Positions 10,600 to 58,141 of a DNA stretch of 64,000 nucleotides are shown here, one piece after another. The stretch is from Methanosarcina horonobensis HB-1 = JCM 15518. GTDB lineage: Archaea; Halobacteriota; Methanosarcinia; Methanosarcinales; Methanosarcinaceae. Position 1 is the first letter of the stretch; every line of letters begins with the position of its first letter. Position numbers and translations under genes: made by a program. The notes below the pieces were generated by a model that searched no databases, was not told where the DNA came from, and saw only the letters and a list, made by a program, of their open reading frames with translations. Location: the NCBI RefSeq assembly GCF_000970285.1, contig NZ_CP009516.1, positions 2,955,036 to 3,019,035 of the forward strand, given 5' to 3'.

Positions 10600-10895
10600 T
10601 ATAGGCATTATCCCGTAGCATGACAGGGATTGAAGCTCTAAATTGATTAATACTTTTTATGTATCTATTATTTTTTATTTGTTTTTATATTTGTACAAAT
10701 TTGATTTTTTTCATTAACTGTTTTATCATAAATTTTAATAACATGACTAAATTTAGAAGAATAGATATATGAATGGCTGTTTTTCTAGAACCTTGTCTGA
10801 ACCAGGATATCAGAATGTAATATTATACCGCTATAATCGTGACTCTCTGAAAAGGGAAAATGCAAGAACATCGAATCGAAAATGAGGCAATACCA
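10600..10895. other. Leader of the frh operon
   Basis: AT-rich sequence with candidate archaeal TATA-like elements (TTTTTATATTTGT around 10679-10693 and TTTTATCATAAATT around 10721-10735). A GAGG lies just upstream of the TTG start of frhA. An alternative in-frame ATG at 10860 is preceded by AAGGGA. Confidence 0.4.
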
Positions 10896-12266
10896 TTGAC
10901 AAAAGTCGTAGAGATCTCTCCAACCACGAGACATGAAGGCCATTCCAAGCTCACTCTGAAGGTGAATGACCAGGGTATCGTCGAGCGAGGAGACTGGCTC
11001 TCCATCACCCCGGTCAGGGGTATTGAGAAGCTCGCTATAGGTAAGACGATGGACCAGGTTCCGAAGATTGCCTCTCGGGTCTGCGGTGTCTGTCCTATCG
11101 CCCACACCCTGGCGGGTATCGAAGCCATGGAGGCCTCGATCGGCTGTGAGATCCCCAAGGATGCAAAGCTCCTGCGGGTCATTCTCCATGCAGCGAACCG
11201 CCTCCACAGCCACGCCCTGCACAATATCCTGATCCTTCCGGACTTTTACGTCCCTGGTACGGAGACGAAGTTCAACCCTTTCGCCAAAGAGCAGCCTTTC
11301 AGGAGCGTTGCGGTGAGAATCTTCCGCATCCGCGAGATCGCACAAACTATTGGAGCCGTCGCAGGCGGCGAGGCGATCCACCCCTCCAACCCGAGGGTCG
11401 GCGGGATGTACCGCAATGTGAGTCCCAAGGCAAAGCAGAAGATGGCTGACCTGGCGAAGGAAGGCCTCGTCCTTGCCCACGAGCAGATGGAGTTCATGCT
11501 CGAGGTCATCAGGAACATGCAGAACCGGGAGTTCACCGAGGTTGCGGGCAAGCAGATCCCGATTCCCAGGACACTTGGGTACCACAACCAGGGGGTCATG
11601 GCCACAGCCCCGATGTACGGCTCATCCAGTCTGGACGAGAAGCCCATGTGGGACATCACCCGGTGGAGGGAGACCCGGCCATGGGATTGGTACATGGGTG
11701 AGGTTACCATCGATCTTGAGGACCCAAGCTACCCAATCGGCGGCACCACGAAGGCCGGCACCAAAGCCAACCCCCGGATAGAGGCCTGCAACACTGTTCC
11801 GACCTACGACGGCCAGCCAGTTGAGGTCGGCCCTAGGGCAAGGCTCGCTAATTTCAAGAACTTCACCGAGAAGGGCACCTTCGCCCAGCACATCGCCAGG
11901 CAGATGGAGTATCCCGACTGCTGCTACACTATCCTCAAGTGCCTTGACAATCTGGATACCTCTGGCAAGGTCCTTGCCGACCACATTCCCCAGGGAGACG
12001 GGTCCATGGGTTGGGCTGCAAACGAGGCCCCGCGTGGAACCGACGTCCACCTCACACGGGTGAAGGACGGGCGTGTGCTGTATTATGAGATGCTTGTGCC
12101 CACCACCTGGAACCTCCCGACCTGCAGCCGCGGGCTGACGGGAGCACCCTGGCAGATCGCCGAGATGGTCATCCGGGCTTATGACCCGTGCGTCTCGTGC
12201 GCAACTCACATGATCGTAACGGACGAGAAGAACAGGATGGTCGCCCAGAAGCTCATTCAGTGGTGA
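10896..12266 (+). CDS. frhA: F420-reducing [NiFe] hydrogenase, large (alpha) subunit
   Basis: The catalytic subunit of the F420-reducing hydrogenase, which splits H2 and sends electrons via FrhG to FrhB for F420 reduction in methanogenesis. The Ni-binding motifs are intact: RVCGVCPIAHT near the N-terminus (Cys63, Cys66 counting from the TTG) and DPCVSCATHM at the C-terminus (Cys432, Cys435, His438). An 18-residue tail follows the histidine and is the usual propeptide removed by FrhD. I prefer the TTG at 10896: it has a GAGG about eight bases upstream, yields MTKVVEISPTTRHEGHSK and gives 456 residues, the normal length. An ATG at 10860 would add 12 non-conserved residues. The operon is clearly more GC-rich than the flanking DNA. 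Confidence 0.95.
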   Translation: MTKVVEISPTTRHEGHSKLTLKVNDQGIVERGDWLSITPVRGIEKLAIGKTMDQVPKIASRVCGVCPIAHTLAGIEAMEASIGCEIPKDAKLLRVILHAANRLHSHALHNILILPDFYVPGTETKFNPFAKEQPFRSVAVRIFRIREIAQTIGAVAGGEAIHPSNPRVGGMYRNVSPKAKQKMADLAKEGLVLAHEQMEFMLEVIRNMQNREFTEVAGKQIPIPRTLGYHNQGVMATAPMYGSSSLDEKPMWDITRWRETRPWDWYMGEVTIDLEDPSYPIGGTTKAGTKANPRIEACNTVPTYDGQPVEVGPRARLANFKNFTEKGTFAQHIARQMEYPDCCYTILKCLDNLDTSGKVLADHIPQGDGSMGWAANEAPRGTDVHLTRVKDGRVLYYEMLVPTTWNLPTCSRGLTGAPWQIAEMVIRAYDPCVSCATHMIVTDEKNRMVAQKLIQW

Positions 12267-12271
12267 AGAGA

Positions 12272-12751
12272 ATGGAAACGCCGTATTCCAGGATCGTGGT
12301 GGCAGGCTGCGGCAACCCGCTCTATGCGGACGACGGGTTTGGGCCCGCAGTTGTGGAGAGTCTCAAGGGTTTCGAGCTCCCCGAAAACGTTACGGTCGTT
12401 GACGCGGGGCTCGGAGGCCCACATTTCGTCTTTACCCTCCTCAATCCTGAGTCCACGAAGACTCTTATCATCGTGGACATTGCAGACTTCGGAGGGGAAC
12501 CTGGCGAGCTCAGATGGCTTGCCGTTGAAGAGCTCCCTGTGGGGAGCTACCGGGACATCCACTCCTGGGATCTGACCGAGCCGCTCCAGTACATCAAGGA
12601 CGATATCCGGGTCCGGGTCCTCGCATGCCAGAAGAAGTACGTTTCTGCCCCAGAGATGGTCATCGGGATTACGGACGAGGTACAGAGAGCCATTCCAGAC
12701 GCTGTATCCGAGATACTGAAGGAAATCTGGATGGACTATGGAACTGCTTAA
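12272..12751 (+). CDS. frhD: Hydrogenase maturation protease for FrhA
   Basis: 159 residues of the HycI/HoxM-type endopeptidase family, which trims the C-terminal tail of the large subunit after nickel insertion. Visible signatures are the N-terminal 'VAGCGNPLYADDGFGPAVV' with the acidic Ni-sensing residues, 'IIVDIADFGGEPGE', and the histidine in 'DIHSWDL'. The ATG at 12272 follows the frhA stop by five bases and is preceded by GAAGAG; an upstream in-frame ATG inside frhA is unlikely to be used. The gene position between frhA and frhG is the standard frhADGB order. Confidence 0.92.
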   Translation: METPYSRIVVAGCGNPLYADDGFGPAVVESLKGFELPENVTVVDAGLGGPHFVFTLLNPESTKTLIIVDIADFGGEPGELRWLAVEELPVGSYRDIHSWDLTEPLQYIKDDIRVRVLACQKKYVSAPEMVIGITDEVQRAIPDAVSEILKEIWMDYGTA

Positions 12752-12782
12752 GAAGATGAAAACTACAAAGGAGGCGAAACCA

Positions 12783-13544
12783 GTGGCAAATAAGATCAAG
12801 ATCGGGCATGTACACTTGAGCGGCTGTACCGGCGACCTTGTGTCCATAGCCGACAACTACCTGGGATTCATCAAGATCCTGGATGACTACGCCGACCTCG
12901 TCTACGGCCTAACGCTCGTTGACGTCCGGCATATCCCGGAGATGGACGTAGCGCTTGTCGAGGGATCGGTCTGCATAGAGGACCGTGAATCAGTGGAGGA
13001 GATCAGGGAAACGCGGAAGAAGTCCAAGATGGTGGTGGCCCTCGGCTCCTGCGCATGCTATGGGAATATCACCCGGTTCTGCCGCGGCGGGCAGCACAAC
13101 CAGCCCCAGCACGAATCCTTCCTCCCCATAGGGGACCTCATCGATGTGGATGTCTACATCCCCGGATGTCCCCCGAGCCCGGAGCTCATAAGGAACGTTA
13201 CTATCATGGCGTACCTGCTCCTGCAAGGGAATGAGGACCAGAAGGTCCTTGCAGACAAGTACTTAAAGCCCCTTATGGCCCTTGCGAAGCGCGGCACGAC
13301 CGGAAGCTTCGGCGACCTGATGTACGACGTGATCAACCAGGGTCTTTGCATAGCTTGCGGAATTTGCGCTGCATCCTGCCCTGTGCGGGCGATTACCCTC
13401 GAGTTCGGAAAGCCGCAGGGTCAGCGTGACCTCTGCATCAAGTGCGGCTCCTGCTACGGCGCCTGCCCGAGGTCGTTCTTCAACTTCGACGTGATTCCTG
13501 AATTCGAGGCTATCAGCGAGCTAATCGCAGACGTGCTTAAGTGA
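12783..13544 (+). CDS. frhG: F420-reducing hydrogenase, small (gamma) subunit
   Basis: 253 residues. It carries the iron-sulfur clusters that relay electrons from the Ni-Fe site to FrhB. The N-terminal module has SGCTGDL, 'GSCACYGN' and 'DVYIPGCPPSP' for the proximal cluster. The C-terminal ferredoxin domain has two motifs, CIACGICAASCP and CIKCGSCYGACP. The GTG at 12783 is the likely start because AAAGGAGG lies at 12767-12774 and the protein then begins ANKIKIGHVHLSGCTG. An ATG at 12738 lies inside frhD and would add 15 residues. Confidence 0.94.
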   Translation: MANKIKIGHVHLSGCTGDLVSIADNYLGFIKILDDYADLVYGLTLVDVRHIPEMDVALVEGSVCIEDRESVEEIRETRKKSKMVVALGSCACYGNITRFCRGGQHNQPQHESFLPIGDLIDVDVYIPGCPPSPELIRNVTIMAYLLLQGNEDQKVLADKYLKPLMALAKRGTTGSFGDLMYDVINQGLCIACGICAASCPVRAITLEFGKPQGQRDLCIKCGSCYGACPRSFFNFDVIPEFEAISELIADVLK

Positions 13545-13554
13545 GGTGAGAAAG

Positions 13555-14430
13555 ATGGTTTCAGATCCGTATCTCGGCAAATACATGACCTGCGTCTCGG
13601 CACGGAGCACGGACAAGGAGATTCTGAAGAAGGCACAGGACGGCGGCATTGCCACCACCCTCATGGTCTATGCCCTCGAGCAGGGGATAATCGATGGGGC
13701 TATTGTGGCAGGCGAGGGCGACCGACCATGGCAGCCCAGGCCATTCGTCGCGATGAGCCGCAAGGACATCCTCAAGGCACAAGGGGCGAAGTATAATATC
13801 AGTCCCCAGATCTCCTGGCTCAAGGAGGCGACCCGGTCCTTCGGCCTCGACAGGGTCGGGGTCACCGGCGTCTGTTGCCAGATGCAGGCAGTCAGGAAGG
13901 CTCAGCTCTATCCTATCAACATGCGGGATGTCCCGGACAAGATCGCCCTTGCAGTAGGGCTCTTCTGCATGGTGAACTTCCCATACGATTCCATACAGGC
14001 CCTTGTCGAGGACCACGCAAACCAGAGCCTCAGCTCCGTGAAGAAAATGGAGATCGGGAAGGGCAAGTTTTGGGTCCACACAGAGCGTGGGAACGTGGCC
14101 ACCGTGCCGCTCAAAGATACCCATAAATATGAGCAGCCCGGCTGCCACGTCTGCCTCGATTACGTTTCCAACCTTGGCGACATCTCAACCGGCTCTGTCG
14201 GGAGCCCGGACGGCTGGTCCACGGTTTTCATCCGCACAAAAGTGGGGAACGACATCTGGTCCAAAGCAATCGATGCAGACCTGTTCGAAACAAAGCCCAT
14301 CGAGGAGGTCAAGCCCGGCCTTGAGCTCGTCACGAAGCTCGCGAAGGAGAAGATAGACAAGAACCGGAAGACCCTCGAAGAGCGCAGGAATTTCGGCGTA
14401 AACAAGGCGTTAAGGGATCCTTATGCCTGA
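13555..14430 (+). CDS. frhB: F420-reducing hydrogenase, beta subunit (F420 binding)
   Basis: 291 residues. The iron-sulfur flavoprotein that passes electrons to coenzyme F420. Features include the N-terminal 'KAQDGGIATTLMVYALEQG', 'GVTGVCCQMQAVRKA', and a cysteine pair in 'PGCHVCLDY' near residue 200. Translation starts at ATG 13555 after GAGGTGAG; the gene follows frhG after ten bases. The last 31 codons and the downstream hairpin region are duplicated in degraded form elsewhere in this window (19990-20031 and 25634-25726). Confidence 0.95.
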   Translation: MVSDPYLGKYMTCVSARSTDKEILKKAQDGGIATTLMVYALEQGIIDGAIVAGEGDRPWQPRPFVAMSRKDILKAQGAKYNISPQISWLKEATRSFGLDRVGVTGVCCQMQAVRKAQLYPINMRDVPDKIALAVGLFCMVNFPYDSIQALVEDHANQSLSSVKKMEIGKGKFWVHTERGNVATVPLKDTHKYEQPGCHVCLDYVSNLGDISTGSVGSPDGWSTVFIRTKVGNDIWSKAIDADLFETKPIEEVKPGLELVTKLAKEKIDKNRKTLEERRNFGVNKALRDPYA

Positions 14431-39770: not shown

Positions 39771-40184
39771 ATGAAGCCCACAGAGAAAACTGACATGAAA
39801 TACACAAACCAGAGAGTAGAAATACTTGCTTTCCTGCGCGAACACGACGGTCATCCCACTGTAGACGAAGTTTATGATGGGGTTAGAAAAAAACTGACGC
39901 GTATAAGCAAGGCTACCGTATATAAAAATCTCAAATTCCTTACGGAGAAAGGTTTACTGGAGGAGGTGAATGTAAAAGGGGTCTCAAGATTTGAAGCGAA
40001 TTTCATTCCGCATCACCATCTCATCTGCAGGGAGTGTGGAAAGATGGAGGATTTTAATTCGGAACAATTGCTGGATTACTCAATGAAGATAGCTGAGGAT
40101 ATAGAAGGATTTACTATTGTTTCAACGAGCACCAACTTCTATGGCATCTGTAAGAAGTGCAAGGGGTATAAGGAGGAAACATAA
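39771..40184 (+). CDS. Fur/PerR-family metalloregulator
   Basis: 137 residues. A winged helix ('YTNQRVEILAFLREHDGHPT' followed by 'RISKATVYKNLKFLTEKGLL') precedes a metal-binding dimerisation domain with 'PHHHLICRECGKMEDFN' and a second CxxC in 'GICKKCKGY'. The short C-terminal domain and the N-terminal arrangement resemble PerR/Fur regulators that sense Fe/Mn and peroxide. It lies ahead of a ferritin-like remnant and the cydAB operon on the same strand, which suggests control of oxygen-defence genes. Confidence 0.88.
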   Translation: MKPTEKTDMKYTNQRVEILAFLREHDGHPTVDEVYDGVRKKLTRISKATVYKNLKFLTEKGLLEEVNVKGVSRFEANFIPHHHLICRECGKMEDFNSEQLLDYSMKIAEDIEGFTIVSTSTNFYGICKKCKGYKEET

Positions 40185-40383: not shown

Positions 40384-41700
40384 ATGGTTGAGTTACTTTT
40401 ATTAAGCCGGCTTCAGTTTGCCATAACAGTTGCGTTCCATTTCCTGTTCGTTCCACTAACACTGGGACTCGCACTGTTAGTAGCGGGCATGGAAACAATA
40501 TACTACAAAAATAAAGATGAAACCTGGCGAAGGATGGCCGATTTCTGGGGTAGGGTATTCAAGATAAACTTCGCAATAGGTCTGGTAACAGGTCTTGCAA
40601 TGACTTTCCAGTTTGGTACGAACTGGGGTGCATATGCGGAATTCATGGGAGATGTCTTTGGACCGCCTTTAGCCGTGGAAGCATTACTGGCTTTCTTCCT
40701 TGAAGGTACTTTCTTTGGCGCATGGATATTCCTGGACCGCTCCCGTCAGAAACTAAAGGCATTTTCCATGTGGATGGTCGCTCTGGGTACTAACATATCT
40801 TCATTATGGATTATCACTGCTAACGGTTTTATGCAGAATCCCGTTGGCTACGAAATGGCTGCTGATGGGAGCAAGGTGGTTATGACCGATTTTTTTGCCC
40901 TGCTTACAAACAGCTATGTGTGGTACATGCTGATACACACTCTGCTTTCAGCTTACCTCTTGACCGCATTCCTGATCATGGGGATCTGTGCTTATCATTT
41001 CCTTAAAAGGAACAACAATGAGGTGTTCAGGAAGTCTTTCAGGATAGCAGTTGCCATAGCACTCATTACTGCAGTCCTGCTTCCGGTTCTTGGTCACGGT
41101 TATGCGCAATATGTTGCCGAGCTTCAGCCCGCCAAAGGAGCGGCAATGGATGCGGTATGGGAAACAGGTTCCAGAGTGCCCATGTATCTGATACAGGTAC
41201 CTGATTCAAGCACTGGTTCCAACAGTGTTCAGTTGCTGGAAATTCCAGGTCTTGCAAGTTTCCTGTATACAGGAAGTTTCAACGGAACAATAACAGGACT
41301 TAACCAGTTAGCTCAGGATGAACTACCGCCTGTAGGAATGGTGTTCTGGAGCTTCAGGCTGATGACAATTCTGGGATCCCTGTTTATCATAGAGGCTCTT
41401 TTGGGCTTATACCTTCAAAAGTCAGGCAAGCTGTACACATCGGATAAGTATCTGAAGCTACTGATGTGGTCTATTCCTCTTCCGTATATCGCCATCACTG
41501 CGGGCTGGATTGTAGCCGAGGTAGGAAGGCAGCCGTGGATAGTATACGGTTTATTAAAAACAGCTAATGGCATATCATCGGTTCCCATCTCGGATGTGTT
41601 ATTAAGTATTGTCCTTATAAGCGCATTCTATCTTATCCTTATGGTCTTTGAGATATACCTCATAAAGAAAACCGTAGTCAATGCTACAGGAGCTGAGTGA
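40384..41700 (+). CDS. cydA: Cytochrome bd oxidase subunit I, short Q-loop type
   Basis: 438 residues with about nine membrane helices. Haem ligands and conserved acids are at the expected places: His19 in AFHFLFVPLT, the glutamates 99 and 107 in LAVEALLAFFLEGTFFGAW, and His185 in WYMLIHTLLS; the GRQPW motif is intact ('EVGRQPWIVYG'). The protein is about 80 residues shorter than the E. coli subunit because the quinol-binding loop is short, as in CioA-type enzymes. In methanogens such an oxidase is thought to scavenge oxygen. GAGGGATAACG precedes the ATG. It overlaps cydB's upstream region. Confidence 0.93.
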   Translation: MVELLLLSRLQFAITVAFHFLFVPLTLGLALLVAGMETIYYKNKDETWRRMADFWGRVFKINFAIGLVTGLAMTFQFGTNWGAYAEFMGDVFGPPLAVEALLAFFLEGTFFGAWIFLDRSRQKLKAFSMWMVALGTNISSLWIITANGFMQNPVGYEMAADGSKVVMTDFFALLTNSYVWYMLIHTLLSAYLLTAFLIMGICAYHFLKRNNNEVFRKSFRIAVAIALITAVLLPVLGHGYAQYVAELQPAKGAAMDAVWETGSRVPMYLIQVPDSSTGSNSVQLLEIPGLASFLYTGSFNGTITGLNQLAQDELPPVGMVFWSFRLMTILGSLFIIEALLGLYLQKSGKLYTSDKYLKLLMWSIPLPYIAITAGWIVAEVGRQPWIVYGLLKTANGISSVPISDVLLSIVLISAFYLILMVFEIYLIKKTVVNATGAE

Positions 41701-41702
41701 AG

Positions 41703-42746
41703 ATGTTCGATTTCCTTACCCATGATATGCTTACTGTTATCTGGTTCTTCCTGTGGTGTGTGATATGGGGAGTTTACTTCATTGTAGACTCATTTTCCCT
41801 TGGAGCAGGTCTTCTGGCACCCTTTATTGCCACAGATAAGGTGCAGATGATACAAATCCAGAGATCTGTGGGTCCTTTCTGGGGTGGTAATGAGGTATGG
41901 TTAATACTGGCTGCAGGCGGAACATTTGCTGCATTCCCTCTGGTATTCTCGAAGATGTTTACTTTCCTGTATCTTCCTATGATGTTGCTGCTCATAGGCC
42001 TGATCGCAAGGGGCATTTCCGTAGAATATCTCCACAAGGATGAGAGTCCCCGGATACAGAAAGCCCTTACGTGGGGATGGTTCGTCGGAAGCCTGTTGAT
42101 CTCTTTGGTCCTGGGAGTCGCATTTGCGAACTTCTTTAAGGGGCTCGAAATCGCTTCAGGAGGAGTTTACATGGGTACCCTTCTCGGACTTTTCAGCCCG
42201 TATGCATTGATAGGCAGTATCCTGTTCGTGCTTATGAATGTTACTTCAGGTGCGCTCTGGATCAGTATCAAGACCGAAGGTGCCATAGCCGCAAAAGCGG
42301 GTGATCTGGCAAAGAAGAGCACTCTTACTGTACTTGTACTCGCTCTGGTCTATCTGGCATACTCATTTGTGGGTATAGATGGTTTTACAATCAACTATTC
42401 AGCTACACCGGCTCTGTACTTATTGCCAATTCTTGCGGTAATGACAACTGCCCTTGCTGTGTTCTTTGCAAAAAAGGACAGGGAATTTCCGGCCTTTTGC
42501 AGCAATCTCCTGGCGCTTCTTTTCGTAGTTCAAAGCGGGCTTGCAAGTATCTATCCTTACATGCTTAAGTCCTCTGTTTCTCCTGAATACGGAATAGATA
42601 TCTTTGAGGCAGCATCAAGCCATATGACCCTGAGCATCATGCTGGGAGGAGCACTGGTATTCGTGCCCATAGTAATTATCTACCAGCTGTGGGCGTATAC
42701 TCTGTTCAGGGAAAAGATAACAGAAATAGAACAGGTCGGTTACTGA
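41703..42746 (+). CDS. cydB: Cytochrome bd oxidase subunit II
   Basis: 347 residues with eight or nine membrane helices. The N-terminus 'IWFFLWCVIWGVYFIVDSFS' with LGAGLLAPF is characteristic of CydB, followed by 'RSVGPFWGGNEVWLILAAGG'. It pairs with CydA to form the membrane oxidase. The ATG at 41703 lies two bases after the cydA stop; a GTG two codons earlier would overlap it. No cydX or cydCD genes are seen in the window. Confidence 0.93.
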   Translation: MFDFLTHDMLTVIWFFLWCVIWGVYFIVDSFSLGAGLLAPFIATDKVQMIQIQRSVGPFWGGNEVWLILAAGGTFAAFPLVFSKMFTFLYLPMMLLLIGLIARGISVEYLHKDESPRIQKALTWGWFVGSLLISLVLGVAFANFFKGLEIASGGVYMGTLLGLFSPYALIGSILFVLMNVTSGALWISIKTEGAIAAKAGDLAKKSTLTVLVLALVYLAYSFVGIDGFTINYSATPALYLLPILAVMTTALAVFFAKKDREFPAFCSNLLALLFVVQSGLASIYPYMLKSSVSPEYGIDIFEAASSHMTLSIMLGGALVFVPIVIIYQLWAYTLFREKITEIEQVGY

Positions 42747-52613: not shown

Positions 52614-53291
52614 TCAGCAGATTTTTAGCATCATGTTTCCACCCTTCTGGAACTCGTATGCCACCTTTACTTCAGTCACATCTAGCTTTTTCATCCTTAA
52701 GATATCGATCACGCGGTCAACGTACGGTGATCGGTTAGCGTTTACGTCCACCAGCGGAAATATTCTGACCTCTTTTGAAACTCTACACAACTCACCCAGC
52801 GATCTTAGATGAAACTCCAGCGATAGATTATCCGTATAGAGGAACAGCAAATGAGAGCACAGTGCAAGGTCGAACTCCTTTTTATCGAAAGGGAGCAAAG
52901 GCAGTTCACCCGGTATGTATCTTTTCTGCATCACGCCTTCCGGGAAATCTTCAAGAAATTTCGCCATAGCTGACATCCTGATCCTTCCAAGTTCCTCAAT
53001 TGAGCCGATTTCTTGCCAAACAAACTTATCCCGGTTTTCTCGGGTCTGTCTAATTATGTCATCATAAGTTTCACCGATTTTCTGCTTGATCTGGTCAGTA
53101 CTGAAACGGTAGACAGGATCGATAGATATGACATTTCCACCTCGCCCCGTAAGCTCTGCATTAAAGCTTGCCGGGCCGTCCCCGCAGCCCAGAATCTTTC
53201 GCTTGAGATCGGCAGGGGTCAGGCTGAACATCCTGACGTATTCGTCAAAAGACCTTCCCCAAGGTTTGATATCATGATATTCAATTGTCAT
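52614..53291 (-). CDS. SAM-dependent methyltransferase-like protein
   Basis: 225 residues. SAM-binding loop 'ILGCGDGPASFNAELTGRGG', then VISIDPVYRF, an acidic motif in 'FDLALCSHLLFLYTDNLSLE', and a C-terminal sheet 'EVRIFPLVDVNANRSPYVD'. ATG 53291 has AAGGT upstream; seven more codons to 53312 are possible. It is the end of a leftward run of three genes (methyltransferase, methyltransferase, terpene-synthase-like), although the spacers of about 170 and 350 bases argue against one tight operon. Confidence 0.75.
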   Translation of the reverse strand: MTIEYHDIKPWGRSFDEYVRMFSLTPADLKRKILGCGDGPASFNAELTGRGGNVISIDPVYRFSTDQIKQKIGETYDDIIRQTRENRDKFVWQEIGSIEELGRIRMSAMAKFLEDFPEGVMQKRYIPGELPLLPFDKKEFDLALCSHLLFLYTDNLSLEFHLRSLGELCRVSKEVRIFPLVDVNANRSPYVDRVIDILRMKKLDVTEVKVAYEFQKGGNMMLKIC

Positions 53292-53463
53292 GTTATGTAC
53301 CTTATAGCACATAATTGTGCAGCGTATATATAAACCGTTTTATTCGATACCCAAATAAAATTAGTCATTAGTGTTTTGTTGAATTTTGAATTATTCAACA
53401 AAGCGTTTACCGTCTAACTTCGAGCCCGCCGGTAAAGCCAGGCACGTACAGGCTACAACAAGA

Positions 53464-54261
53464 TTATTTAATAGCTGTGCCTTTGAAAAAGGTATAACAA
53501 AATGTACCTTCTTGTCCGGCCGTCCGGTGGAGGTCACTAATACCTTTATTCCACGTTCTTTCGTCGATCATCTTTAATTCCAGCGCCTGCTCCCTGACAC
53601 CTTCTACCATCGCGTTGAAAGTATTTTTCGTAAATCCTTCTACCAGGTCGGGTTTACTCGAATCGACATACACCATTCTTGGGGAGACACTCACATTTTT
53701 AAAACCAGCTCGATTCAATAGCGGATAGATCTCTCTACCTATAAGGGAATTTCCCCCCAAAAGTTCCTGGATGTCGATCAGGCACTTTATTGCTTGCATG
53801 GCTTCATCGCTCCCGGGGTAAAAATAGCTTGAGCCATGATCTCCCTCTATAACAGTTATCGTGCCCCCTTTTTTGAGTACTTTTTTCACCGACAATAAAG
53901 CGTCCAGAGGGTTTTTAAGGTGCTCAAGTACAAAGCATATGAAAACGTGGTCAAAAGTCTCGTCTTCAAAGGGCAGATCGAAGATATTTGCCACCTGAAA
54001 GCTGACATTCGCCAGCCCTTCTTTTTCAGTCAATAATCTAGCTTTTTCGACTGATTCGCCGGAAATATCAATTGATGTGATGCTGGCTTCGGGGCTGTTT
54101 TTTGCTAATATAACTGTCTGTGCGCCCACGCCGCAGCCGGCTTCAAGAACTCTGCTCCCAGGAGGATATATAGTATCGTGATGCAACAGCGTAGTTAGAG
54201 TATTTGCCTGATCACAGAGCCGAGAATTTTCCCTATCCGAATATCCGTGTACGTAATCCAT
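53464..54261 (-). CDS. Class I SAM methyltransferase, UbiE-like
   Basis: 265 residues. 'GSRVLEAGCGVGAQTVILAK' (motif I), 'SITSIDISGESVEKARLLTE', 'FDHVFICFVLEHLKNPLDAL' (the motif with EHL typical of UbiE/sterol C-methyltransferases) and 'LKKGGTITVIEGDHGSSYFY'. The C-terminal half has a hydrophobic cap. ATG 54261 follows GGTGA; six extra codons to 54279 have no ribosome-binding site. It lies next to the terpene-synthase-like gene, on the same strand. Confidence 0.83.
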   Translation of the reverse strand: MDYVHGYSDRENSRLCDQANTLTTLLHHDTIYPPGSRVLEAGCGVGAQTVILAKNSPEASITSIDISGESVEKARLLTEKEGLANVSFQVANIFDLPFEDETFDHVFICFVLEHLKNPLDALLSVKKVLKKGGTITVIEGDHGSSYFYPGSDEAMQAIKCLIDIQELLGGNSLIGREIYPLLNRAGFKNVSVSPRMVYVDSSKPDLVEGFTKNTFNAMVEGVREQALELKMIDERTWNKGISDLHRTAGQEGTFCYTFFKGTAIK

Positions 54262-54453
54262 TTTATTCACCAATTCCATCAGATCATTGCTTTGCTGGTG
54301 CTAATATGTTCCTTGATGTACCTGTGTGTACAAAAATTTAGTGCTATGCAGCTGTAACAAGTCAATTACTCGCACTCGAAGTCGCAGACTTGCAGTTAAC
54401 TCACGTTGCTACGTTTGATTGATAGACAAACCTTTAGCTCAGGGGGATATGTT

Positions 54454-54629: not shown

Positions 54630-55580
54630 CTAGTTCATAGCATCGGTCTGCCAATATAGGTTCACATAGTTGTTGACAAACTTAGAAGTATCAAAACTCT
54701 TTATCTCGGAATTCTCCGCGAATTCCTTCATTGACAATATGGCCTTGTCCAGTTCATCTTCTATCACTTCTGACACGGGTGATAGTTTCTCTTTCAGATT
54801 TTCTGTGCTTGCCCTCTCGAAATCGCTAAACTTGATAAGCTTCTTTTCAAGAGCTAATGAAATTACTGGACAGCTATAATCTCTCTCGGTTATTTCTCTT
54901 GTCCATGTATTAATCGTATTACTCAGCATTGCTACGATATCCGCCAGTTTGAAAAGGACTATCGCTTTTCCAAGCTCAGAGGTGTCAAAATTTTTGGAAG
55001 ACATCAGGTCGAGCAGGGAATGGGTCTCGATCATTGTAGAGGCAGCCCTGCTACGTACAACATGAGAGAATGGGTATACAATTTTATTCTTGTTCAAAAG
55101 ATAGGAAAACTCCATTGATTCAGCAACGTTACGCATTGCTAGGAGAAATTCACCTCTGAAGTCACAGTATCTTGGAAGCGACGCTATTTGATTTCTAACT
55201 AAGTCTGAATAAATCCCAATAGTAGTTTTTATATACATATTGTTAGTTAAATGGGCATCTAATAATATATAATCTCCAGATTCAATTTTATCCGTATTAT
55301 ATAGCATGCTTAAAATCTCATAGCTGAATTTATCTCCACCGTTTTTTTCTCTTAGAAGCGCATAATCGCATGAATCGTCAACAGCTACACCGATCATGGA
55401 CAGACATGTCTTGAGATCGGTTAGTCTGGAAACTAGAGACGGATCCACACAAGAAAGGTACAGACATCTATAACTGTTATATAACCAGTCGAAGAGAGCT
55501 GGCTTTCTGAGAGGGCTTGCAACATTTCTGAAGTTTAAAAAGTATTTTTCCCACAAAGTTTTATGTTCGTTCATTATCAT
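54630..55580 (-). CDS. Putative class I terpene synthase
   Basis: 316 residues, mainly helical. Counting from ATG 55580 (AGGTGAT upstream), an aspartate-rich AVDDSCDYALL provides DDxxD at 68-72. 'SHVVRSRAASTMIETHSLLD' supplies a candidate pyrophosphate-sensor arginine (176) about 45 residues before NTINTWTRE, which matches the NSE-type Mg-binding triad (Asn221, Thr225, Glu229). Motif order and spacing are those of bacterial class I terpene cyclases, not of prenyl elongases, which have two DDxxD motifs. Terpene cyclases ionise C10-C20 prenyl diphosphates. Two methyltransferase genes follow on the same strand. This identification rests on motifs alone; cyclase activity and product are inferred. 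Confidence 0.6.
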   Translation of the reverse strand: MIMNEHKTLWEKYFLNFRNVASPLRKPALFDWLYNSYRCLYLSCVDPSLVSRLTDLKTCLSMIGVAVDDSCDYALLREKNGGDKFSYEILSMLYNTDKIESGDYILLDAHLTNNMYIKTTIGIYSDLVRNQIASLPRYCDFRGEFLLAMRNVAESMEFSYLLNKNKIVYPFSHVVRSRAASTMIETHSLLDLMSSKNFDTSELGKAIVLFKLADIVAMLSNTINTWTREITERDYSCPVISLALEKKLIKFSDFERASTENLKEKLSPVSEVIEDELDKAILSMKEFAENSEIKSFDTSKFVNNYVNLYWQTDAMN

Positions 55581-55841: not shown

Positions 55842-57329
55842 CTATGAATCTTTGAACAGTATTTTATATTTCATCCCCGGCCCATTTTCAATTTCGATAC
55901 TACCACCGATTTGATCCACAAGAGTGTTTACAAGTTGTAAGCCTAGCGAACTGATATTTTTAAAGTCAAAGGATTCCGGAAAACCAATTCCGTTATCTCC
56001 AACAGTCAGCTTAAAATAACTGCTGGGGCCGACGTTATTTTGCATACTAAAGTCAGCAGTAGTATTGCTTGACTTTTTATCGTCAAGAGCTTGAAGTTCA
56101 ATGTGAATTTCCCCGCTTCGTCCATCTGGAAATGCATATTTTAAAGAGTTTGAAACCAGTTCATTGACAATGATACCCAAAGGGATTGCGTTGTCCATTT
56201 CAAAAAAGAAATCCTCCACATCCAAGTAAAGTTTGATATCGGAATTTCCTACTTTGTATGACTTGAAGAGATCATCTGTTAATTTTTTAAGATAAGATGC
56301 GAAGTTAATTGTTTCCATGTCTCTGGAGTTATACAATTCCTCGTGAATAACAGACATCGATATGATTCTATTGTGGCTTTCTCGAAATGCTTCAGCAATT
56401 TTTTTGTGATCGGGAGTCCCGGAAAGCAGGTTGTCGCATTCTAAGTCCAGGAGGCTGGAGATTACCTGCAGGTTGTTTTTTATTCTGTGGTGAATTTCTT
56501 TTTTGCGGAGCTTTTCAGCTCTGTCAAGCGATTCCGTTGCAATTTTTCTTTCGGTAATATCCTGTATAAAGCCCTGATAAAGTCTACTTGTCTGATCTAT
56601 ACTGTGTATAACTTGAATAGATTCAAAAATCCATACTCTATTCCCGTTCCTATTTCGCATTCTGTATTCTTGCTCAACTAGATAGTTTGATGCAGTACTC
56701 AAATTTCTTCGATTTTCAAAAAAATTGCTCCGATCTTCAGGATCCACAAGTTGAGCCAACTGGATTTTTCCAGAAAAAAAATCTTTATCTTCGTAGCCAG
56801 TAATTTCCTTTACGGCCCCGTGCAGCAGCACAAAATCAAAGTTGCCGTCTAGCTGGAATCCAATCCCTCTGAAATTCTGCAAATATCTGAGGAGATTTTC
56901 TTCGCTTATCTTAAGTTTTTCCTGATTATGCTCTCTTTCTGTAATATTTTTAAGCAAACCGATGGCTCTATATACACGATTATTTTCATCTTTTAGGAAA
57001 ACACAACTACATTCCACATAAATATAAGTTCTATTCTTTCTTTCAAGTCTGAATTTCTGCTCAAACTTCTCTCCGGTCTTTAGAGAATTCATAAGAGTGT
57101 TCCAGAACATTTCTTGTTCTTCGGGATGGATTAAACTTTTACTGGCTCCCAGATCGACTTTACCGAATTCCTCTGGAGTATAACCAGTAAATTCTTCAAT
57201 TATTCCGTACCATTCAATTTTGCCAGTCTTCGGATCACCATCGAAAATTAGTTGTCCTGTTTGGCCAGCTATAGAAAAAAATCTTTCCGCAATTTTCTCC
57301 AAGTTTTCTTTATGATAGTCCTTTTCCAT
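55842..57329 (-). CDS. PAS-sensor histidine kinase
   Basis: 495 residues from ATG 57329 (a TTG at 57386 would add 19). Two PAS domains: 'GQLIFDGDPKTGKIEWYGII' with 'FRLERKNRTYIYVECSCVFL', then 'LQNFRGIGFQLDGNFDFVLL' with 'RNGNRVWIFESIQVIHSIDQ'. A HisKA_2-type helix follows with the phospho-acceptor in KEIHHRIKNNLQVISSLLDL, and an HATPase domain ending 'LTVGDNGIGFPESFDFKNIS'. No membrane segment. The catalytic half closely resembles that of the PocR kinase at 43 kb, so the two are paralogues. The adjacent secondary-metabolism-like genes are not obviously linked. Confidence 0.88.
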   Translation of the reverse strand: MEKDYHKENLEKIAERFFSIAGQTGQLIFDGDPKTGKIEWYGIIEEFTGYTPEEFGKVDLGASKSLIHPEEQEMFWNTLMNSLKTGEKFEQKFRLERKNRTYIYVECSCVFLKDENNRVYRAIGLLKNITEREHNQEKLKISEENLLRYLQNFRGIGFQLDGNFDFVLLHGAVKEITGYEDKDFFSGKIQLAQLVDPEDRSNFFENRRNLSTASNYLVEQEYRMRNRNGNRVWIFESIQVIHSIDQTSRLYQGFIQDITERKIATESLDRAEKLRKKEIHHRIKNNLQVISSLLDLECDNLLSGTPDHKKIAEAFRESHNRIISMSVIHEELYNSRDMETINFASYLKKLTDDLFKSYKVGNSDIKLYLDVEDFFFEMDNAIPLGIIVNELVSNSLKYAFPDGRSGEIHIELQALDDKKSSNTTADFSMQNNVGPSSYFKLTVGDNGIGFPESFDFKNISSLGLQLVNTLVDQIGGSIEIENGPGMKYKILFKDS

Positions 57330-58141
57330 GATTGTTTCTCTGTTCAATTCTAACTTTTTTCCATACCTATTTTCAAATGAACTCAACTATTTGAGGACAT
57401 AAAGTTTATTGGTTATAATATGTACATTATTTGATTTATTTAATAAAAGGATTTCTACAAATATTATAAAATGATAATTTTTTAAATTCATATATTATAG
57501 AAAATGATAAATGAAAAAAAAAATTGAAAATATGATTTTTAATAGTAATATCTATAATACAATTTCAAGAGTTTATTAATTAATGAACTTATAAGACAGT
57601 AAATACTCAATATTCACATATAACTTGACAATTATCATGGAAAAATTAATTTCTCTTCTTTAATATACTATATCCCATACAATATATTAAAGAAATATTA
57701 ATCATTAAGGTTTATTTCCTTTAACTGTATAAAAGTATTTACATTTATTTTACTTTTTAAGTCAACTGAAGTTTATTTTCGAATAAATAGACTACTAATC
57801 ATTCCAATACTAATTACAGAGATATTTATGCATGAAAAATGGATTTAAGTTATTGTTAGCTAAAATTTTCGCGAAATAACTCTACCATTAACATCGTTTG
57901 AAACGGAGGGACATTGTAGAAATAGCAAAACCTCATCTGCATTACTTTTAAGAAATGCCGTTATCGATTTTTCTGATGAGCTCTTAATCATTTTTCTCTA
58001 ATTTATGATTTTTTTTCAGATCTTACGGTATATGTCAGAAACGATTTATATTTTGTAAATAATATAAATTAATGCAATGGTATGCTGGTATAAAGAAGCT
58101 TGGAATACTTGAACATTTTACACGCATTTTGGGGGATAAAG
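57330..58141. other. Very AT-rich intergenic region
   Basis: No open frame of substance. Long A- and T-runs dominate around 57410-57800. The promoter of the decayed surface-protein gene is expected at its right end. Confidence 0.5.

Follow-up and report, generated by a model that had tools for sequence, protein, structure and literature searches.

What does the minus-strand gene at 54630–55580 in this part of the Methanosarcina horonobensis genome encode, and which of its neighbors share in its function? The sequence-only reading of the window (the whole stretch of 64,000 nucleotides that was analyzed) proposed an archaeal class I terpene synthase, with a methylated terpenoid as a conceivable product. 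The whole archaeal domain builds its lipids from prenyl diphosphates, and terpenoids as specialized metabolites are, to our knowledge, hardly known from archaea. The features of the locus are as follows.

54630–55580, minus strand: candidate terpene synthase gene (316 amino acids from ATG 55580; 319 amino acids from GTG 55589)
55365–55379, minus strand: DDSCD, a DDxx(D/E) metal-binding motif (residues 71–75; conservation and alignment to DDQCD of bacterial synthases)
54894–54920, minus strand: NTINTWTRE, an NxxxTxx(R/K)E, NSE-type metal-binding motif (residues 224–232; aligned to bacterial NDIISLEKE)
55047–55055, minus strand: R179-S180-R181, candidate pyrophosphate-sensor region, a few residues ahead of the helix break at residue 186
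55842–57386, minus strand: PAS-PAS-HisKA_2-HATPase sensor histidine kinase, a conserved partner directly upstream of the synthase gene (domain search)
53464–54279, minus strand: UbiE-type SAM methyltransferase, a downstream neighbor and no conserved partner (domain search and locus comparison)
52614–53312, minus strand: second methyltransferase-like gene, weakly recognized, not beside the synthase gene in relatives

The Gene and Its Reading Frame

The open frame on the minus strand runs from GTG 55589 to the stop at 54630 and comprises 319 codons; all residue positions (DDSCD, NTINTWTRE, R181, and others) are counted in this 319-residue numbering. ATG 55580 is closely preceded by AGGTGA (upstream sequence, AGGTGATAACTATG) and, given this element, is probably the start in preference to GTG 55589; the frame 54630–55580 is as first read, and its start coordinate is this likelier ATG. 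Among synthase copies of Methanosarcinaceae, dN/dS is 0.09–0.24, which indicates that the gene is under purifying selection.

Other features of the window were seen by eye only. A gene pair at 40384–42746 encodes multi-pass proteins resembling CydA and CydB of cytochrome bd oxidase and, in this methanogen genome, is preceded by a Fur-type regulator gene (39771–40184). In addition, a GC-rich stretch (GC content 0.51–0.58; 10860–14430) resembles an F420-reducing hydrogenase operon with FrhA-, D-, G-, and B-like genes.

Fold and Profile Comparisons

The AlphaFold2 model of the window protein, built with a 65-row alignment, is all-helical (pLDDT 93.2, pTM 0.91) and contains the α-helical isoprenoid-synthase (α) domain. 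In this model, DDSCD is located toward the C terminus of the long helix formed by residues 50–75, the NSE-type motif is located on the helix of residues 203–234, and a helix break at residue 186 separates helices 174–185 and 187–196. Class I synthases have a break in helix G, and the break at residue 186 falls there. All 50 PDB matches listed for the model are class I terpene synthases, mostly cyclases; the best of these 50 is hydropyrene synthase (E 8e-4, probability 1.00, TM 0.62–0.67). Structure prediction and comparison, which had been named as a check on the sequence-only reading, thus speak in its favor.

Several properties are common to the window protein and the bacterial Terpene_syn_C_2 (PF19086) synthases, such as hydropyrene synthase, pentalenene synthase, and VenA: the all-helical α domain (TM about 0.6), two metal motifs on separate helices at similar spacing (DDxx(D/E) toward the end of a long one, NxxxTxx(R/K)E on the other), and a kinked helix before the second motif. 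Unlike these enzymes, the window protein has a Trp after the triad Thr and scores below the Pfam cut-off, identity being about 13%, and its family has no family-wide sensor Arg, no RY pair that could be seen, and constant signaling neighbors.

When searched singly, the window protein has no match above chance in Pfam, NCBIfam, or PDB sequences and does not reach the PF19086 gathering cut-off (23.7 bits). Rag GTPase fragments among the PDB sequences are chance matches only, and HTH_37 and RimP are weak, isolated matches below cut-off; these candidates were rejected. A PF19086 search of the organism's own genome gave no match, and the gene is therefore invisible to standard annotation. Relatives scanned singly reach 17–23 bits against PF19086, just below the cut-off; at E ≤0.1, Terpene_syn_C_2 is matched by 47 of the 65 aligned relatives (best 3e-7), and Terpene_synth_C is matched by 10 of them. 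The terpene synthase profile search, also named as a check, therefore failed for the window protein itself but succeeded for many of its relatives.

At the level of profiles, the family matches bacterial PF19086 synthases, represented by Chloroflexota members of the NDIISLEKE type, at 95.8% (E 6.8e-9) over 225 columns with both metal motifs in register. In the control comparison with prenyl diphosphate synthases (PF00348), the probability is 0.2–0.4%, and membership in that family, in which the second motif is DDxxD and not of NSE type, was rejected. The Methanosarcina subset alone has a weak profile match to the bacterial synthases (11%, E 0.003), matches the rest of the family at 99.8% (E 4.6e-30), and is on a long branch (2.33) in the tree.

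Metal-Binding Motifs and the Candidate Sensor Arginine

Of the 47 window frames that stay open for 150 codons or more, just one contains the pattern DDxx[DE]-x(110-180)-Nxxx[ST]xxxE. The occurrence of DDSCD and NTINTWTRE in one frame is not due to chance. Asn224, Thr228, and Glu232 are invariant across 65 divergent relatives, which reach down to about 13–20% identity. Trp229 and Asp237 are likewise invariant (65/65), and position 231 is Arg or Lys in all 65. In the first motif, position 71 is Asp in 62 of 64 relatives and Asn in two, position 72 is Asp in 64/64, and position 75 is Asp or Glu in 64/64. The Asp71–Asn224 spacing of 153 residues is inside the family range (mostly 140) and close to the spacing of about 138–145 in Chloroflexota terpene synthases. 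The two motifs had been described as standing in the order and spacing of bacterial terpene cyclases, and their order is that of class I enzymes.

The sensor arginine suggested along with them is upheld only in part. Arg181 aligns opposite the sensor Arg of bacterial synthases in the profile alignment, and Arg or Lys is retained at this position in 6/6 Methanosarcinaceae rows, but the position is occupied by other residues in other clades and is not conserved family-wide. A C-terminal RY pair is typical of canonical bacterial terpene synthases and does not define all class I synthases; in the family alignments, no such pair about 80 residues past the NSE motif is conserved after residue 232.

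Distribution of the Family

Roughly one in three Methanosarcina genomes contains a relative, and relatives also occur in two other genera of Methanosarcinaceae. A wider scan with one genome per species yielded 79 loci, which belong to many haloarchaea, Methanosarcina, Thermoplasmata, one Geoglobus MAG, several Patescibacteria, and single MAGs assigned to Gammaproteobacteria, Lysobacteraceae, and Anaerolineae. The 'Lysobacteraceae' MAG is small (0.7 Mb) and may be mis-binned. In Patescibacteria the family is present in 3 of 287 genomes and is thus rare, and a search of viral contigs found no relatives. Plasmid-borne copies in haloarchaea are annotated 'hypothetical protein'.

The synthase copy of one genome (G075) is 96% identical to that of the window. 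Broken copies also exist: in G079 (L140:8538-8735), an internal deletion has removed much the larger part of the synthase gene's interior, with the adjacent kinase gene intact, and the G100 copy is truncated. The G087 copy has an in-frame TAG, which may be a pyrrolysine or a nonsense codon. The same two possibilities apply to an in-frame TAG in Methanosarcina sp. UBA293 (L028:2743-3702), about 82 codons in, where relatives have Glu or Lys.

As a remark on the literature, the statement that terpene cyclases have very rarely been described from archaea is fair. In genomes, by contrast, the family is common and is present in 40 of 393 from the phylum. Archaeal terpene synthases have already been reported: a 2024-25 preprint claims archaeal terpenoid biosynthesis (Samusevich et al., bioRxiv 10.1101/2024.01.29.577750, cited in PMC12797696), and a 2026 paper used archaeal terpene synthases characterized earlier in yeast (PMC13235557). 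The enzymes of the preprint were reportedly found by structure-aware prediction and may well include the family of the window protein. A literature search on terpene synthases in Patescibacteria and Halobacteria found nothing relevant.

Association with Sensor Kinases and Other Signaling Proteins

In 12 of 12 other Methanosarcina-type loci, a PAS-HisKA_2 kinase gene adjoins the synthase gene or its remnant in the same order and on the same strand. Orthologs of this kinase (at least 68% identity) are found only in genomes that have the synthase or its remnant; genomes with neither contain kinase paralogs only (at most 53% identity). The kinase and the synthase are gained and lost together in Methanosarcina, and the constant genomic companion of the synthase is the sensor kinase, not the neighboring methyltransferases.

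Across the family, genes around the loci were called with a simple script and neighbors were counted over 91 loci. PAS, GAF, kinase, or BAT proteins occupy 51 of 174 directly adjacent positions versus 8 of 403 at positions 4–6; many of the haloarchaeal loci are related, and these counts are not independent. Signaling genes adjoin the synthase gene far above background in haloarchaea, Thermoplasmata, and Patescibacteria. Pfam searches of 38 adjacent signaling proteins identified PAS, GAF, HisKA, HATPase, and BAT with HTH_10, and HalOD1 genes are located at most three genes from the synthase gene in 24 loci. In the Natrialbaceae clade the signaling neighbor is mostly missing. Methanosarcina has a HisKA_2 kinase upstream, many haloarchaea have a divergent BAT-type regulator, and bacteria have a downstream 7TM kinase; as neighbor type and arrangement vary by clade, inherited synteny alone is not sufficient to explain the association.

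In Patescibacteria-type loci, the 7TM kinase gene overlaps or abuts the synthase gene (−4 to 28 nt). A polyprenyl synthetase gene is located beside the family member in seven of these bacterial loci, several Patescibacteria-type genomes have a single polyprenyl synthetase gene, and type I IPP isomerase is encoded at L070 and L087 (above NCBI cut-offs). One operon of candidate division CPR2 (L087:3464-10790) encodes a 7TM kinase, a polyprenyl synthetase, an IPP isomerase, the terpene synthase, and a second 7TM kinase, and is apparently a complete terpenoid-plus-sensor cassette in an ultra-small bacterium.

Fusions to signaling domains also occur. In two haloarchaeal proteins, the synthase domain is preceded by an N-terminal receiver domain (REC in L053:7407-8849; REC-HalX in L090:7341-8855); both retain the phospho-acceptor Asp and belong to separate clades in the tree. 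Among the PDB matches listed for the structure model of a REC–synthase fusion, only the receiver domain is represented, and the synthase half gains no separate support. In a gammaproteobacterial MAG, a PilZ domain is fused to the terpene synthase domain (L066:2485-3852), which is possibly a c-di-GMP-linked terpenoid enzyme; further PilZ fusions or relatives were absent from 369 genomes of the class of this MAG. A gene for a geranylgeranyl-reductase-like flavoprotein directly precedes the PilZ–synthase gene.

Reading of the Locus and Its Alternatives

The predicted fold, the conserved motifs, the profile comparison, and the genes around relatives all agree, and the assignment to class I terpene synthases, as originally proposed, is well supported. 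Computation shows homology to such synthases, their fold, conservation of the metal ligands, purifying selection, and a sensor kinase as the constant partner. On the main reading, which is given a probability of about 0.78, the gene would encode an active class I synthase of a divergent family that ionizes a prenyl diphosphate and forms a module with the kinase. DDSCD and NTINTWTRE would bind three Mg2+ and thereby hold and ionize an all-trans prenyl diphosphate, and the carbocation would then be quenched or cyclized in the helical barrel to give a terpene. GGPP is probably the substrate because, as in archaea generally, the core lipids of the cell are made from it and because the organism's own genome encodes two prenyl diphosphate synthases (polyprenyl synthetase genes); a substrate of near chain length, including C25, may be used instead. 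The kinase and the synthase would work as a single module, with terpenoid output either governed by a signal or acting as one.

The same signaling context could be read in another manner, with a domain of terpene synthase fold having become a non-catalytic ligand-binding or output module of signaling proteins. The receiver and PilZ fusions, the steady association with kinases, and the absence of the sensor Arg from most of the family are consistent with this view, which is nevertheless improbable: essentially every relative, however divergent, retains the full set of metal ligands, which a domain for binding only would not need, and bacterial operons with a family member also contain genes for prenyl diphosphate synthase and IPP isomerase. 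Somewhat less improbable, although still unlikely, is a class I enzyme that uses prenyl diphosphates without being a cyclase, e.g., a prenyl transferase or a producer of linear terpene alcohols or hydrocarbons. What the fold and motifs define is ionization of a prenyl diphosphate, not cyclization, and the effector region is divergent; however, most of the PDB matches listed are cyclases, prenyl diphosphate synthase profiles are unmatched, and an NSE-type motif stands in place of a second DDxxD.

The idea that the two downstream methyltransferases modify the synthase product, making the locus a methylated-terpenoid gene cluster, is the least probable of these alternatives and would be surprising. 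Two methyltransferase genes do follow on the same strand, as first described, and one is of UbiE type, but the second is only weakly recognized. The gaps are large (350 nt from the synthase gene to the UbiE-type gene and 152 nt between the two methyltransferase genes). The UbiE-type gene is beside the synthase gene only in the window and in the 96%-identical genome G075; it is 9 kb away in G102 and absent near the other Methanosarcina-type loci, save for weak, generic methyltransferase matches (28–30%) in two, and the second methyltransferase was found at none of the other Methanosarcina-type loci. A methyltransferase conserved beside the synthase, as in a methylated-product cluster, is thus lacking in Methanosarcina, and the methylated product suggested for this locus is not upheld. 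In favor of the idea, two bacterial relatives (L031, L079) have a methyltransferase gene directly before the synthase gene, abutting or overlapping it; these methyltransferases weakly resemble geranyl diphosphate C-methyltransferase as well as many other families. Terpene clusters with a C-methyltransferase are known for 2-methylisoborneol and sodorifen; L031 and L079 resemble these in having a methyltransferase beside a class I synthase, whereas the Methanosarcina methyltransferases are not conserved neighbors. At L018:8880-11169 of Halobellus limi, the synthase gene is followed by opposite-strand genes for a methyltransferase and a prenyltransferase/squalene-oxidase-repeat protein, an arrangement not seen to recur.

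Implications for Signaling in Archaea and Ultra-Small Bacteria

With an active synthase partnered by a kinase as the preferred reading, the kinase linkage suggests regulated production of a terpenoid, which may be a signal, a membrane modulator, or a defense compound. As read from gene order, the link between synthase and signaling is a genomic association, hinting that related archaea and tiny bacteria may make terpenoids under, or as part of, a signaling circuit. A more specific proposal is tentative: a terpenoid signaling module in methanogens, haloarchaea, and Patescibacteria might use a small diffusible or membrane terpenoid that the adjacent PAS or 7TM kinase either binds as its ligand or regulates as its output, with some synthases switched by phosphorylation (REC fusion) and perhaps by c-di-GMP (PilZ fusion).

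Known parallels are two-component systems whose output domain is an enzyme, and pairs of a signal synthase and a receptor kinase. The family resembles them in its receiver-domain fusions and in its adjacent kinases, of which some have a 7TM sensor; the output or signal-making part would here be a terpene synthase, for which no precedent was found in the literature searched. Nor did any paper found there connect a terpene synthase with a sensor kinase in archaea or Patescibacteria, and the signaling linkage of an archaeal terpene synthase seems to be new. A widespread, mostly unannotated synthase family with sensor-kinase partners would point to a small-molecule trait under regulation in methanogens, haloarchaea, and ultra-small bacteria.
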